Positions 52,264-59,687 of a stretch of 64,000 nt of DNA are shown piece after piece. The stretch is from Clostridiaceae bacterium HFYG-1003. Its GTDB lineage: Bacteria > Bacillota > Clostridia > Clostridiales > Clostridiaceae. Within the stretch, counting starts at the first letter, position 1, and the number at the start of each line of letters is the position of its first letter. Position numbers and translations under genes: made by a program. Under the pieces are notes generated by a model. That model was given only the letters and a program-made list of their open reading frames with translations, had not been told where the DNA came from and ran no database searches. Where the stretch lies: positions 1,835,558-1,899,557 of the forward strand of contig CP102060.1 of NCBI GenBank assembly GCA_024579835.1, given 5' to 3'.

Positions 52264-52712
52264 TCCGTTTTGCTTATCTCCTCGATCGGGATCCTAAGAC
52301 GTCTCCCTTTACCTACTATATTAAAGGAATCCGTCGGGTAAATACAGGGAAAGGCCTGATATTTCGGATATTCGTTACATAAAATTCAATATCTCCGAAC
52401 TACCTGCTACCTCTTTGGTCCTGTTTCTCCCTGAAAGTGCTTCACCCAAGGAAAGTCCTTGAACGTGCTCGGTCCCACCTGTTCCCTCATTTTCGAGTCG
52501 AGATGATGCAAATCATTTGCATTTTAAAGGCTGTATGTCCTATAATTTTTTTGAATAGAGTCCTTGGAAGCGAACAGATCATTCATAAGCTCAGAACACC
52601 CGGACTGCGGATTCCTGCCGGAAATGAGCCTGATCCTGCCACCGTGCTTTATACCTGAACAAACTTTGAAAAAAGCGGTTGACTGCAGTCATTCCGCATT
52701 GAAGGGAAATCC
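52264..52712 (+). promoter_or_regulatory. Promoter and palindromic Fur-family operator of the zinc-type importer
   Basis: At 52506-52522 lies ATGCAAATCATTTGCAT, a perfect 8-1-8 inverted repeat. Its last bases form the -35 TTGCAT (52517-52522), followed by an 18-bp spacer and TATAAT at 52541-52546. A repressor on the palindrome would cover the -35. The predicted 5' leader is about 160 nt long and shows no clear gene or riboswitch. The 52264-52500 part shows nothing else. Confidence 0.75.
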
Positions 52713-53402
52713 ATGGAAATCCGAAATCTTGAATTCAACTATGAACCGGGATCACCGGTTCTGATCCATGATCTGAACCTGACCATTGCACCCGGAGTAT
52801 TCCTGACTGTCCTGGGCGAAAACGGGTCTGCCAAGTCAACCCTGATCAAGCTGATGCTGGGTCTGCTCAAACCCGTCAAGGGAGAGATCCGCCGGACCTT
52901 ATCCAAAATTGGTTACGTGCCGCAAAAGAAAGACAAGTTTAATATGCGCTTTCCCATTACTGTGCGCGAAATGCTCGCGATCCACATGGCCAGGGGTTGC
53001 CAGGGTTCCCCGGAAACGTATCTGGCCATGGTAGAAATGGAGGATCAGGCGGAAGCACTGTTCGGAGAGCTCTCCGGGGGTCAGCAGCAGCGGGTTCTGA
53101 TCGCCCGGGCAATTTCTGCCTGTCCGGATCTTTTGATTCTGGATGAGCCGCTGACCGGTATTGACAGTCACTCCCGCGAAGTCATCCGCCATTTGCTCCT
53201 GAAACTGAATCAGGAAGGCCTGACGATTGTCTCCATTGAACATGATGTAGCATTTGCCCTGCATCACTCGACTCATATTCTGACCATGAAGGAAAACCAG
53301 GTCCGATGGTTTACCGTTGAGGAGTATAAAAACCAAATCGGCCACGATGACCGGGACAATTTTTTACATCACCTGGAGGAACATTCCCATGCTGCAATAT
53401 GA
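52713..53402 (+). CDS. znuC: Zinc/manganese-type ABC importer ATPase (ZnuC/AdcC-like)
   Basis: A 229-aa ATPase. Walker A reads GENGSAKST (35-43): the Gly before the catalytic Lys is Ala, a change also known in streptococcal AdcC-type proteins, so it is probably functional. Signature LSGGQQQRV, Walker B LLILDEPLTGID and the His switch SIEHDV are normal. The gene overlaps the permease gene by 14 nt. Context with a Fur-family regulator and a matching operator suggests zinc uptake. The metal is inferred, not shown. Confidence 0.9.
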   Translation: MEIRNLEFNYEPGSPVLIHDLNLTIAPGVFLTVLGENGSAKSTLIKLMLGLLKPVKGEIRRTLSKIGYVPQKKDKFNMRFPITVREMLAIHMARGCQGSPETYLAMVEMEDQAEALFGELSGGQQQRVLIARAISACPDLLILDEPLTGIDSHSREVIRHLLLKLNQEGLTIVSIEHDVAFALHHSTHILTMKENQVRWFTVEEYKNQIGHDDRDNFLHHLEEHSHAAI

Positions 53403-54165
53403 TTTCATGAGAAACGCCCTGGCGGCCGGATTCCTGATCGCCCTGCTCTGTCCGGTGATCGGTTCCTTCCTCGTACTCAAACGGTTTTCCATGATGGGCG
53501 ACACCTTGTCCCATTCCGCTTTCGCCGGCGTCGCACTGGGTGCGTTCTTCGGGTTGAATCCCTCCGTCGCCTCTTTGATCTACACGCTGCTGGCAGCGCT
53601 ATTGATTGAGTACCTGCGCAACCGGTTTAAAAGTTACGAAGAGGTCGTGATGTCCATTGTCATGACGTTCAATGTCGGCCTGGCCATTATCCTGGCTTCA
53701 CGCGGGAGCAGCGCCAATATTGAATCGTTCCTTTTTGGTTCAATCCTCACAGTAGAACCCTCTGATCTTTTCCTGATCGCAGCAGTCACGCTGATCAGCC
53801 TGATCTTTATCCGAATCTTCTATTCGCAGCTGCTCTATATCACCTTTGATGAAGAAGGCGCGGAGATCTCGAAAATCCCGGTTGTGTCCCTGAATTACCT
53901 GTTCATGGCACTGACCGGAGCTACTGTCGGAGTCTCCATCCGGATTACCGGTCTCCTGGTGATTTCATCCATTCTGGTTCTGCCGGTGGCGGCAGCCTTG
54001 AATCTGAGAGCGGGCTTCCGCAAGACTCTGCTTTGGGCTGTTGGCTTTGGTCTGATCGCCGTCCTGTCCGGCCTGGTCCTCTCCTATTATCTGGATTCAG
54101 CCCCGGGGGGAACCATCGCCATCATGAGTGTCGCCGTCCTGTTATGTTCGTTCTTCCTTCGCTGA
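53389..54165 (+). CDS. znuB: Zinc/manganese-type ABC importer permease (ZnuB/AdcB-like)
   Basis: A 258-aa membrane protein with about eight helices of the metal ABC-3 family. Typical sequences are KRFSMMGDTLSHSAFAGVALG (about 31-51) and VSLNYLFMALTGATVGVSIRITGLLVISS. ATG 53389 follows TGGAGGAA by 7 nt; the frame extends upstream inside znuC. No periplasmic-type metal-binding lipoprotein is encoded next to it, so the binding subunit must be elsewhere. Confidence 0.93.
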   Translation: MLQYDFMRNALAAGFLIALLCPVIGSFLVLKRFSMMGDTLSHSAFAGVALGAFFGLNPSVASLIYTLLAALLIEYLRNRFKSYEEVVMSIVMTFNVGLAIILASRGSSANIESFLFGSILTVEPSDLFLIAAVTLISLIFIRIFYSQLLYITFDEEGAEISKIPVVSLNYLFMALTGATVGVSIRITGLLVISSILVLPVAAALNLRAGFRKTLLWAVGFGLIAVLSGLVLSYYLDSAPGGTIAIMSVAVLLCSFFLR

Positions 54166-54309: not shown

Positions 54310-54780
54310 TTACTTTTGTTTTCTGCCGGAGGCTGAACCTTCCTTGTCCCCCTCAGAAGCTGTTTTCTCCAGCCGCTGGGAGCATTCTGCACAGATTCCC
54401 TTCAGTTCCAGCCGGTGTTCCATAATCGAGAATCCGGTTTCCCGGTTAATCAGCTCCTCGATCTTCACCATGGGACAGTCCAGATCCACCGTCTTATGAC
54501 AGATTTCACAGGTCAGGCTGTGCATATGGTGATCCCGCTTCAGCACATAGTTATACTTCTTTTCTCCCAGGTCAAATTTATCAAGGACACTGATACTCTC
54601 CAGAAGCTCCAGCGTCCGATAGACGGTCGAGAGGTTGATGTACAGCTCACGATTTTCGGCTTCATCCCGGATGGACTCGGCATCCAGTCCATGATCGGAC
54701 TGAGCAAGGATTTCCAGAATGGCTTCTCTGGGCTTTGTGATTTTCAGACCGTGTTTTTTGAGCAATTCCTGAACGTTCAT
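54310..54780 (-). CDS. Fur-family metal-responsive repressor (Zur-like by context)
   Basis: A 156-aa winged-helix regulator. The DNA-binding domain (1-80) includes the recognition helix NLSTVYRTLELL. Metal sites: His84, His85 and His87 in KRDHHMHSLTCEIC, the structural zinc pairs Cys91/Cys94 and Cys130/Cys133, and His122. It converges on the zinc-type ABC importer, whose promoter carries a Fur-type palindrome, so control of zinc uptake is the best guess. PerR or Fur function cannot be ruled out. A hydrophilic 20-residue tail is added at the C-terminus. Confidence 0.9.
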   Translation of the reverse strand: MNVQELLKKHGLKITKPREAILEILAQSDHGLDAESIRDEAENRELYINLSTVYRTLELLESISVLDKFDLGEKKYNYVLKRDHHMHSLTCEICHKTVDLDCPMVKIEELINRETGFSIMEHRLELKGICAECSQRLEKTASEGDKEGSASGRKQK

Positions 54781-55164
54781 CGATCTTTAGGCAAGGTTCC
54801 TCTCTTCCGATTACTGCGGGAAGAATAGTCTCTCATTGGTTACGAATGAATCGGTCCCCTTGCCGTTCTCCTTTCTATCATTATACCGGTCAGTGCAAAT
54901 AATCAACTCATAGAAAACATAAAAAATGCATGGCAGAGTGAGTGACAAACAAAGCATGGGGAGATCGGAATACATTAAATGATTCCGAATGCAGCAATGC
55001 AGTGACTTTAATATCATCGGCTGTCCCATCCGAAACATCAGGGACGCCGCCGGTAGTCGAAGAAAGCAGTACTAAGGTACATGGGACCGGTTCCCAGACG
55101 GAAACAACCATGTCCCTCTTGACTTCTATTTGTAATTATAGCAGATTTTCCAATGGTTCCCGTC
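54781..55164 (-). promoter_or_regulatory. Upstream region of the Fur-family gene
   Basis: A minus-strand TATAAT lies near 54880-54885, with TTGATT 15 bp before it. Beside it (plus 54894-54900) is TGCAAAT, one half of the palindrome found before znuC, which could allow autoregulation. A second minus TATAAT lies at 55135-55140, and a 67-codon frame (55111-54908, minus) follows it after AGAGGG. I do not recognise its product and do not call it a gene. Confidence 0.35.
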
Positions 55165-55710
55165 TTAGAGAAAAGCCATTCTCAAACCGAACACCAGCAG
55201 AATGGCTCCTCCAATGAAATCGGCGTATTTTGTTACGAGAGGGGCAGACTGAAGACGCTTGCTCAGCACGAATGCCAGGCTGACCAGAATCAGGGTGACA
55301 ACTCCGATCAGGAGTCCATCCTGCAAAATGTACTCTCCTCTGGAGTACAACGCCGTAATGCCGACAATCATGGCGTCAATCGATACCGATACCCCGAGGA
55401 CAATCTCCATGCCCGGCTTGATCAGAATGCATTCCTCTTTCTGCTGTGCACCCTCCCGGATCATCATAATGCCGACACCCAGTATTACCAATCCTCCGAT
55501 CAATGTCGGCACAGCGGCAATCTCCTGATTGATGAGCCGTCCCAAAGCAGCGCCTATAAAGGCAAAGGCAAACTGGAAGAACGCAAAGGACAACGCAAAC
55601 CGCACTTTCTTCAGTCGATCCACCTGACAATTGATACCAATGGACAGCGCGACCCCACAAGCATCCATCGCCAGGGCTACCCCGATCAGCAGCACATTCC
55701 AACTATTCAT
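55165..55710 (-). CDS. mntP: Manganese efflux pump MntP
   Basis: A 181-aa membrane protein with six helices in two halves. The conserved Asp16 in LAMDACGVALSIG and Asp112 in SIDAMIVG are the metal-path residues of the family, which exports Mn2+. GGGGGAA precedes the ATG. I see no yybP-ykoY manganese riboswitch in the 100 bp upstream before the IS110 element begins. The insertion may have separated the gene from older regulatory sequence. Confidence 0.94.
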   Translation of the reverse strand: MNSWNVLLIGVALAMDACGVALSIGINCQVDRLKKVRFALSFAFFQFAFAFIGAALGRLINQEIAAVPTLIGGLVILGVGIMMIREGAQQKEECILIKPGMEIVLGVSVSIDAMIVGITALYSRGEYILQDGLLIGVVTLILVSLAFVLSKRLQSAPLVTKYADFIGGAILLVFGLRMAFL

Positions 55711-56094: not shown

Positions 56095-57282
56095 ATGTAC
56101 TATCTGGGCATTGACATCGGCAAGAACAACCATGAAGCAGGTTTCATCAGGGAGGATGGCAGCCATGTGGGCAAGTCTCTGCGCTTCACAAACACCCAGG
56201 AGGGCTTCGAGAAGCTCACCCAGTTAATTCAGGATCGCCTCCCACAGGATGAAACCTTCTGCATCGGGATGGAAGCCACCGGCCATTACTGGCTGGCGCT
56301 TTACTCATTTCTGCATGAACAAGGCTATATTCTGCACGTGATCAATCCGATCCAATCCGACAGTCTTCGAAACTTCCACATCCGTCAACAGAAGACTGAC
56401 GCGGTGGACTGCTTCTTGGTGGCCGAAGTCATCCGCTTTGGCAAGTTCACTGAAACTCACCTTGCGGATGAGGATATCCTGATCCTTCGCAATTTCGCTC
56501 GTTTTCGTGAATCTCTGAAAGACTCCTGCGCAAACTATAAACGCCAAGTTATCACAGTCCTGGATCAGGTATTCCCGGAATATGACAAGCTCTTCTCGAA
56601 TCTGTTTGGCCAAAGCTCCAAGGCCTTTCTAAAGACTTATGGAACTCCTGAACAGGCGATGGAGGTTGACACCGATTCTTTGGCTGATTTGCTTAATAAG
56701 GCCAGCAGAGGTCGTCACAGCGCCGATAAAGCGCAGCAGCTCAAAGAGGCTGCATCCCGGTCAGTTGGCGTTACCATCTGCTCGGATGCCTTTGCCTTTC
56801 AGCTGAAGATCCTGATTGAGCAGGTTGAGTTCACAGAAGGCCAGCTTCATGAAATCGAAAATAAGATTGACACGCAGTTAAAGAAAATCAACTCCGTCAT
56901 TCAGACGATCCCTGGTGTCGGGGCTGCTACTGGGGCTATGATCCTGGCGGAAATTGGAGACATCAATCGCTTCTCTACCCCAAAGAAGCTTGTCGCATTT
57001 GCAGGAATGGATCCCACCATGATGCAGTCCGGCAACTTCACCGGACAGCACAACCGACTCTCGAAGAAGGGCTCACCCTATCTTCGGCGGGCAGTGTGGA
57101 TGGCTGCTGTATCCGCTTCCAGGCATGATCCGGTCTTCAAGGCCTTCTATGAGAAGAAACGATCCGAAGGGAAGTCCCATGGGACTGCCATCGGTGCTGT
57201 ATCACGGAAACTACTGTACACCATCCACGCTGTACTGAAGGCTAATAAGCCGTATGAGGTTCATCTGGATACCATCTCATAA
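56095..57282 (+). CDS. IS110-family transposase (RuvC-like DEDD recombinase)
   Basis: A 395-aa recombinase. The N-terminal RuvC-like domain has Asp7 in GIDIGK, Glu60 in GMEATG, and Asp102 and Asp105 in KTDAVD, the DEDD set of IS110 proteins. A coiled coil follows (about 235-265). The Tnp_20 domain has IQTIPGVGAATGAMILAEIGD and the probable catalytic Ser312 in MMQSGNF, followed by RLSKKGSPYLRRA. All key residues are intact, so the protein may be active. In this family the enzyme works with a structured RNA from the element's noncoding end. Confidence 0.95.
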   Translation: MYYLGIDIGKNNHEAGFIREDGSHVGKSLRFTNTQEGFEKLTQLIQDRLPQDETFCIGMEATGHYWLALYSFLHEQGYILHVINPIQSDSLRNFHIRQQKTDAVDCFLVAEVIRFGKFTETHLADEDILILRNFARFRESLKDSCANYKRQVITVLDQVFPEYDKLFSNLFGQSSKAFLKTYGTPEQAMEVDTDSLADLLNKASRGRHSADKAQQLKEAASRSVGVTICSDAFAFQLKILIEQVEFTEGQLHEIENKIDTQLKKINSVIQTIPGVGAATGAMILAEIGDINRFSTPKKLVAFAGMDPTMMQSGNFTGQHNRLSKKGSPYLRRAVWMAAVSASRHDPVFKAFYEKKRSEGKSHGTAIGAVSRKLLYTIHAVLKANKPYEVHLDTIS

Positions 57283-57765: not shown

Positions 57766-59064
57766 CTATTTTCTATTCAAATTTGCATTTTCTAAAGCGT
57801 TTTTCAAGACATTCTCGTCAAAGGAATTGAGCAGCTTAGCCAGATTATCTTCGAATCCCCAGGAGAAATCCTTCCGGATCAGCCGGATACTGCTGTTCTT
57901 TTTCATCAGTGGCTGGACCAGTTTGAACAGGGACAAGGCCATCTTATTGAGGATGCTCAAATTGGTGAACGCCTGTCGATCCACTGTCGTGTTGTCGTCT
58001 TCGTGGAAGGTATAGTCCAGATGCCAGTGCAGCTGGTTTTCCACACTCCAATGCCCCCGGATCGCGTCTCCGCCGAGTTCAACATCATTGAGACTGGTGA
58101 TATAGTATCGGATTTCAGTGCTCTCTTTGCCGGTTATTGTGCTGAATATCCTTTTCTCGTAACAGATGAAATTACGAAGCCCCTGCCACTCCTTATCCAG
58201 ATCAATGGCCTTGGTCATATAGAACTGCCTGGTTTCAATCTGACTGTGAGATTTTTCAGTGGTCTCGTAATAATTCTTTCCAGCTTTTCGAATTCTGACT
58301 TTATTCTTCTCCGTGAAGGATTCAGCGGCAGCCAGTGCCAATTTTCCCTGATTACCCTTCAGGGCACCAACATAGTTTCCGCCTCGCTCCATGATGATTC
58401 CGATGGTTTTGGTCTGCGTGTGCAGAGCATCAAAGGTGACGATGGCATTTTTGAGTTGGAGCATTTTGAGTGCTTCCTGGGCAGCGGGGATCTCATTGGT
58501 TTTGCTGTCGATCTGATGAGAGACTATGCAGACGCCATTGGAGGCATCGTAGATATGCAGAGTCTGCAGATTACGGATCTCCTGATCAGTACCGGCTTTG
58601 CGTCCCGTACCGCGTTCTTCTTTCCCATCAATGCACAGTTGACGTACCGATGATTTGATGCCCAAAGACTTCCTGAGGACAGCCATATTCTCCATTAGAA
58701 ACAGTACAGTAGCCTTTTCCAGCTGCTCCGAGGCAATCAGTGAGAAGACCCGGCGAAACGTGTCATGAGAAGGAATCCCATTGTTCAGCTTCAGGAATTT
58801 TTTCAGCCACTTGTGCTTGGCATTGCCAAACCGCTCGATCTCATTCCAACTCGAGGCATTGCCAAGCACCGCCAGAAAGGCGATCACCAGGATCTCCTCG
58901 AGCGGGTAGTCGGTCATCGCCTGGATCCTGACATCTTCGATCTCCCGGAACAGGCGAATAAAACGCTTCATGATCTTTTGGGGAGGGGTGTACTCGTCAA
59001 TGGTTATGCCGGTGGCTTTGATGACTTCCCGGTATTCCAGGATGGGTCTGCAAATCTTGCTCAT
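57766..59064 (-). CDS. ISAs1-family DDE transposase
   Basis: A 432-aa transposase. An N-terminal helical domain (about 20-125: DYPLEEILVIAFLAVLGNASSWNEIERFG) is the DDE_Tnp_1-associated region. Catalytic residues are Asp146 in LCIDGKEERG, Asp212 in VTFDALHTQ and Glu342 in GHWSVENQLHW, all intact. YVGALKGNQ is a family motif. The ATG at 59064 overlaps the stop of the accessory gene as ATGA. GGGAGG lies 8 nt upstream, inside that gene, so the two are translationally coupled. Confidence 0.93.
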   Translation of the reverse strand: MSKICRPILEYREVIKATGITIDEYTPPQKIMKRFIRLFREIEDVRIQAMTDYPLEEILVIAFLAVLGNASSWNEIERFGNAKHKWLKKFLKLNNGIPSHDTFRRVFSLIASEQLEKATVLFLMENMAVLRKSLGIKSSVRQLCIDGKEERGTGRKAGTDQEIRNLQTLHIYDASNGVCIVSHQIDSKTNEIPAAQEALKMLQLKNAIVTFDALHTQTKTIGIIMERGGNYVGALKGNQGKLALAAAESFTEKNKVRIRKAGKNYYETTEKSHSQIETRQFYMTKAIDLDKEWQGLRNFICYEKRIFSTITGKESTEIRYYITSLNDVELGGDAIRGHWSVENQLHWHLDYTFHEDDNTTVDRQAFTNLSILNKMALSLFKLVQPLMKKNSSIRLIRKDFSWGFEDNLAKLLNSFDENVLKNALENANLNRK

Positions 59065-59687
59065 AGCTGGTCCTCCCACTTCAAGTTATATTTCAATCGT
59101 AGTTGTCTGGTGACCTCGGGTTCCGCGGAACGGTAAACCCGGTCATTGATGCTGACCATGTAGACCAGAGGAAAAAGGAGCATCACGGTTGGAAGATCCT
59201 CACCAAAGTGTCTAGCCATTGTGTCCCGGATCATCAATTGACTCCGCTGGATCCCAAACTCTTGGGGCTTTGTCAGAACCGCGTCAAAATCAAGGTCTGG
59301 GAAGCGCCTGGATAGATAGGATTGTTTGAACAGAAGAGAGTCGTAAGTTCCATACAAAAACGAGAGGATGGATGCTGCCATGACCAGGTCACCAGCTTTG
59401 GTGAAAGTACGGCGCAGGCCTTTGTGGATGTTCTCGCAGATGGTAAGAACCGTTGTGGACATGCCAAACTCCAAAACAACCGGTGGCTCATTCACTTTGT
59501 CCTTGGGCGGGATCAAGCCATCTTCCTCAGTGATCCGACCCAGATAACCATCACTGACCCGCCGAACTTTGTCTGTACCTTTGATCCGCTCCGAATGGGC
59601 GGCATACAGATAGTACTTACCTTTGACGACGTTGATGTAGGTACCTGGTTTCTTATGTTTAAGCACCCAATCGGGATAATCAGCCAT
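59061..59687 (-). CDS. Accessory protein of the ISAs1-like element, unknown function
   Basis: A 208-aa protein encoded first in the element. The N-terminal part (1-65) reads DYPDWVLKHKKPGTYINVVKGKYYLYAAHSERIKGTDK...DGYLGRITEEDG (shown in pieces). It resembles the small N-terminal beta domain of IS1634/IS4-type transposases (KGKYYVYE...KYLGRI). The rest (80-208) is helical with no catalytic residues that I recognise. GGTGGTGAAG precedes the ATG at 59687, and ATGA coupling with the transposase implies both are made together. It may be a DNA-binding helper or a regulator. Confidence 0.8.
   Translation of the reverse strand: MADYPDWVLKHKKPGTYINVVKGKYYLYAAHSERIKGTDKVRRVSDGYLGRITEEDGLIPPKDKVNEPPVVLEFGMSTTVLTICENIHKGLRRTFTKAGDLVMAASILSFLYGTYDSLLFKQSYLSRRFPDLDFDAVLTKPQEFGIQRSQLMIRDTMARHFGEDLPTVMLLFPLVYMVSINDRVYRSAEPEVTRQLRLKYNLKWEDQL

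Follow-up and report, generated by a model that had tools for sequence, protein, structure and literature searches.

Gene organization and the palindrome upstream of znuCB

The window analysed here, a 64,000-nucleotide stretch of the genome of Clostridiaceae bacterium HFYG-1003, carries a putative zinc-importer operon of two genes, znuC and znuB, which faces a gene for a Fur-family regulator. The features of the locus are as follows.

52506–52522, no strand: proposed Zur operator, ATGCAAATCATTTGCAT (sequence, znuA copy, conservation, published Fur_1691 core)
52507–52521: 7-1-7 core of the palindrome, TGCAAATCATTTGCA, identical to the published Fur_1691 motif
52517–52522, plus strand: TTGCAT, −35-like hexamer overlapping the operator (sequence; 3/6 consensus positions)
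52541–52546, plus strand: TATAAT, perfect −10 hexamer after an 18-bp spacer (sequence)
52713–53402, plus strand: znuC-like ABC transporter ATPase, 229 aa (PF00005, E 2.2e-24)
53389–54165, plus strand: znuB-like ABC-3 metal permease (PF00950, E 1.7e-67)
54310–54780, minus strand: Fur-family regulator, 156 aa, proposed Zur (PF01475, E 4.1e-25)

The top NCBIfam matches of the ATPase and the permease are the zinc ATPase AztA and the zinc permease AztB, respectively, each under its cut-off. The ATG at 53389 was taken from the sequence as the start of the permease gene, while the profile searches used 53392–54165. As the initial annotation of this DNA had described, the regulator gene faces the operon ~0.9 kb past znuC; it ends ~145 bp past the permease gene. 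A gene for an MntP-like manganese exporter (55165–55710, minus strand) adjoins the regulator gene, and transposase-like genes, recognized by eye, flank the far side of the locus (56095–57282, plus strand; 57766–59079, minus strand). Rfam gave nothing credible between 52200 and 55900, where its two microRNA matches were far under the gathering score.

Read on the plus strand, positions 52506–52522 form a perfect 8-1-8 palindrome, and the sequence confirms the TTGCAT, the 18-bp spacer and the TATAAT that were first noted there. The reading of TTGCAT as the −35 element is weak: only three of its six bases match TTGACA, which makes it a poor −35, and a znuCB promoter with TTGCAT/TATAAT was absent from the output of a standard promoter scan. 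Perfect 8-1-8 palindromes number seven in the window against about one expected from composition, so this one is notable only by its place (0.007 expected in the 449-bp intergenic stretch) and its conservation, and for this reason conservation was used as evidence. The ATGCAAATCATTTGCAT pattern has its sole match in the window here even at three mismatches, which says little alone because 31 of 100 shuffles also contain at least one three-mismatch match.

The regulator

The product of the regulator gene possesses the Fur-family domain (PF01475, 88.7 bits; cut-off, 23.1). Its two CxxC pairs (C91, C94, C130, and C133), which in Fur-family proteins form a structural zinc site, are conserved without exception among the 18 aligned proteins, as are H85, H87, and C102. 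The protein falls below every NCBIfam cut-off, with the Fur and PerR models outscoring the Zur model, and does not pass the curated Zur model NF008646 (32.3 bits vs. 167). The 17 other aligned proteins also match NF008646, yet at best the Fur and PerR models match better, and in our judgement NF008646 is too narrow for this clade. Because the regulator is under all NCBIfam cut-offs, the name Zur rests on its context. It groups with the orthologs of relatives, away from the two intact paralogs of its own genome (100/99 split), both of which match PerR models best, though under cut-off. A third Fur-like paralog of the genome (G000:C1:1121148-1122853; L016, L017) is interrupted, its N- and C-terminal pieces lying 1.2 kb apart with a 330-aa frame between them that looks by eye like a transposase.

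The conserved C102 is an additional cysteine, part of a CP motif, that all members of the ortholog group share. Near position 80, where other Zur proteins have a sensor cysteine, the alignment shows a hydrophobic residue. Judging from the aligned residues, this clade may have a different zinc-sensing site.

A second copy of the site before an unlinked znuA

The genome (G000) is a single contig of 3,425,042 bases (3.43 Mb). At up to one mismatch, TGCAAATNATTTGCA occurs in it at two places only, the site in the window and TGCAAATCATTCGCA, a one-mismatch copy located 1.2 Mb from the window and ending 17 bp before the start of znuA. The znuA gene (G000:C1:3091049-3091972) encodes a 308-aa ZnuA-type lipoprotein (PF01297, E 6.4e-70), the best solved relatives of which include AdcA-, Lmb-, and YcdH-type (zinc-type) chains, ahead of manganese-type ones. 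As read from the sequence, the copy follows a TTGACA-17-TAAGAT promoter and precedes the ribosome-binding site. Composition predicts about 0.5 matches at up to one mismatch in the genome, and 1.5e-5 in the 100 bp upstream of a particular gene. The predicted zinc importer of this organism is split over two distant loci, znuCB in the window and znuA elsewhere, each with its own copy of the site (hereafter the box). The initial annotation had expected a local, self-contained switch; the box before the distant znuA and the unboxed regulator gene, described below, speak against this.

Two-mismatch matches were found at eight more places in this genome vs. three in a reversed control. By eye, no metal-related neighbor was recognized at any of the eight, and they were treated as chance. 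Ribosomal-protein paralogs, suggested earlier as further targets, were not among the matches at up to two mismatches in this genome when inspected by eye.

Conservation of the box among relatives

In the best 30 loci returned for each gene, a box with up to two mismatches was present before znuC in 30/30 and before znuA in 28/30, against 1/600 shuffled upstream sequences in each case. One of the two znuA exceptions (G001) is a split match with the site present before its N-terminal piece; the other (G016) has no box within 350 bp at up to two mismatches. Divergent znuA/znuC pairs had a single common site in 11 cases. The initial annotation would have been undermined by a lack of the site at other metal-uptake promoters of this genome and its relatives; its presence before znuA here, and ahead of both znuC and znuA among relatives, supports the proposed Fur-family (Zur-type) operator for a zinc importer. 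A slightly relaxed 17-mer, searched with one mismatch, matched in 34 of 58 genomes, our own included, and 47 distinct sites, 24 of them exact, were collected over 31 genomes.

We also compared 80 named loci centered on the regulator gene, which are Clostridiaceae-type (best, Youngiibacter fragilis, 56%) and do not include Clostridium thermocellum. ZnuB was in reach in 32 of them, and a box with up to one mismatch was found in 27 of these 32 but in none of the 48 without ZnuB in reach. An MntP-like gene was near the regulator gene in 64 of the 80, vs. znuB in 32.

The regulator gene itself was preceded by a box at up to two mismatches in 0/30 loci, the one in the window included (shuffled upstream sequences, 3/600), and autoregulation was rejected on this count. 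A half-site with four mismatches, TGCAAATAATC, lies ~110 bp before the regulator start (54894–54904); relatives have no box at the matching position, and it was left as chance. The sequence and geometry of the site, its recurrence before znuC and znuA and its absence before the regulator gene are direct observations.

Among 30 fetched pattern loci of relatives, nine were not beside znuA or znuC: one precedes a COG0523 gene, three (L025, L026, and L033) precede an NF037962/PF11449 (ArsP_2) permease, and the other five look like chance, several lying within coding regions. Among another 12 places that were fetched, one is before a COG0523 operon (L247), one is at znuA (G036:C21), three are the loci L248, L250, and L256, and the remaining seven were matched to no explanation. 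In G013 (L031) and G028 (L247 with L233), the box precedes a ycgR/ycgQ-like operon, in which two successive COG0523/CobW-like genes come first and a permease and a small membrane protein come after. By eye, L256 (G036:C33) has a two-mismatch box ahead of a Fur-like frame with a CobW-like gene behind it, the one case where a regulator gene seems boxed; L248 (G010) has a one-mismatch box ~170 bp before a cation-diffusion-facilitator-like frame; and L250 (G019) has the exact core ~65 bp upstream of the gene for a TauE-like membrane protein.

Relation to known Zur systems

Zur of Bacillus subtilis is a Fur-family protein with a 7-1-7 site that has an AATnATT-like center and lies before zinc uptake genes, as here. 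The initial annotation remarked that the window sequence differs from the Bacillus box, and the difference presumably lies in the outer bases of each half (TGCAAAT here). In Clostridia, a Zur motif was given as unreported in 2009 (PMC3087516). More recently, DAP-seq of Fur_1691 of C. thermocellum identified TGCAAATcATTTGCA before the zinc ABC operon clo1313_1690-1688, a motif conserved in C. clariflavum, C. stercorarium, and Caldicellulosiruptor bescii (PMC8457756; 2021). That study, which did not assay the response to zinc, reported no self-regulation of Fur_1691 (PMC8457756).

Positions 52507–52521 are letter-identical to this published core, TGCAAATcATTTGCA. Because the identical core stands before a zinc ABC transporter in C. 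thermocellum (PMC8457756), the window site adds to a known clostridial switch and is not a new system. We likened the window regulator to Clo1313_1691 by box and gene context. In both systems the zinc ABC operon adjoins the regulator gene, and self-regulation was neither reported for C. thermocellum (PMC8457756) nor seen here. They differ in that znuA of our organism is unlinked, with its own copy of the box, and that its regulator gene and znuCB converge. The boxes before COG0523/CobW-like genes in G013 and G028 recall the Zur-controlled COG0523 genes described elsewhere (PMC2770081). The genome of the window, in contrast, has no COG0523 target among its boxes with up to one mismatch.

A proposed zinc switch and its alternatives

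Judging from the core, its recurrence and the gene context, we have little doubt that the palindrome is the operator of a zinc repressor, Zur, encoded at 54310–54780. With zinc in good supply, a Zur dimer loaded with the metal would bind TGCAAATCATTTGCA and block RNA polymerase at the znuCB promoter, as the site covers the −35 region; when zinc is scarce, Zur would leave TGCAAATCATTTGCA. The same Zur would bind the one-mismatch copy just after the −10 hexamer of znuA and block transcription there, so that the two halves of the importer would be co-ordinated in trans. We infer this protein as the binder, zinc as the co-repressor, and repression as the effect, in each case as the most likely reading.

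A metal operator could also answer to manganese or iron, or be bound by another Fur-family protein, two of which are intact and PerR-like in this genome. The better scores of the Fur and PerR models on the window regulator would fit such a reading, as would the MntP-like genes near the regulator gene in the window and in 64 of the 80 named loci. mntP is not boxed, however, as no box with up to one mismatch was found in the 48 named loci without ZnuB, and the boxes that are present precede znuC and znuA, plus COG0523 genes in G013 and G028. In addition, the znuA product resembles zinc-type binding proteins, and the two PerR-like paralogs stand outside the ortholog group of the regulator. We therefore regard another effector or binder as improbable.

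That Zur binds the site but activates, or acts in both senses, is in our estimation very improbable; Zur activation also occurs in some bacteria, as mentioned in the C. thermocellum report (PMC8457756), but the positions over the −35 at znuCB and just past the −10 at znuA both suit blocking. Least probable of all, to the point of being negligible, is that an AT-rich promoter happens to contain the palindrome by chance. The seven palindromes where about one is expected, and the three-mismatch matches in 31 of 100 shuffles, would fit this reading, but chance is contradicted by the recurrence before znuC and znuA over 31 genomes, by the znuA copy in the same genome, and by the binding reported for the same core (PMC8457756).

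The box before permeases annotated for arsenic efflux

At L025, L026, and L033, where the box precedes a permease of the NF037962/PF11449 family, it has no znu gene beside it. Other boxed-permease loci are L219, L221, and L225–L229 in the set of relatives, and L258–L261, L265, L270, L273, L280, L286, L287, and L309 in a set of 393 genomes of the class. They occur mostly in genomes without a ZnuA-family protein; at L221 the box lies 14 bp before the permease start codon. The genome of the window has znuA, znuC, and znuB, and no NF037962/PF11449 permease.

Among the 58 relatives, 12 have a permease over the cut-off, and 10 of the 12 have no ZnuA match at E 1e-15 (Fisher 1.8e-5, ignoring kinship; a single genus accounts for five of the ten). 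A box with up to two mismatches lies close before 7 of the 12 permease genes that have upstream sequence; the genes of G014, G033, and G054 and both genes of G040 have no box at that threshold, and for the gene of G053 and locus L223 the contig gives no upstream sequence. In the class set, the permease was found in 79 genomes (E 1e-20) and PF01297 in 275 (E 1e-10), with both in 12 (Fisher 1.2e-30, ignoring kinship). By eye, permease-only genomes occur alongside ZnuA-only ones in eleven families.

Of 81 permease genes in the class set, 77 were examined; left out were the gene of G380, in which the frame is broken, those of G322 and G325, which are partial matches, and that of G123, at a contig end. 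Eleven of the 77 are boxed at up to one mismatch vs. 0/3850 shuffles, and they come from families f1, f8, f27, f28, and f36, to which the set of relatives adds f2. No box at up to two mismatches was found before 64 of the 77, which speaks against a general rule; these permeases may depend on a different box or have a different role. Permease and ZnuA occur together in 14 genomes (the 12 of the class set plus G014 and G033), in six of which the open frames give a long variant of ~400–450 aa, perhaps a different type of permease.

From the control by the box and the complementary distribution, we infer that the boxed permeases may import zinc. The box would then mark NF037962/PF11449 (ArsP_2) permeases as zinc-starvation genes, and these could be misnamed alternative importers that largely replace ZnuABC in Clostridia, a possibility that we rate at slightly under an even chance. 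A published link of this family to Zur was not found in our search, which left most subscription journals outside its range.

Significance

The present analysis takes a motif that was known from a single DAP-seq study (PMC8457756) and makes of it a marker for comparing Zur control across Clostridiaceae. In Clostridiaceae bacterium HFYG-1003, it places the two distant loci of the predicted zinc importer under one box. As a marker, the box also points to a permease family annotated for arsenic efflux as a possible zinc supplier; if this is true, a widespread family would supply zinc where ZnuABC is missing.
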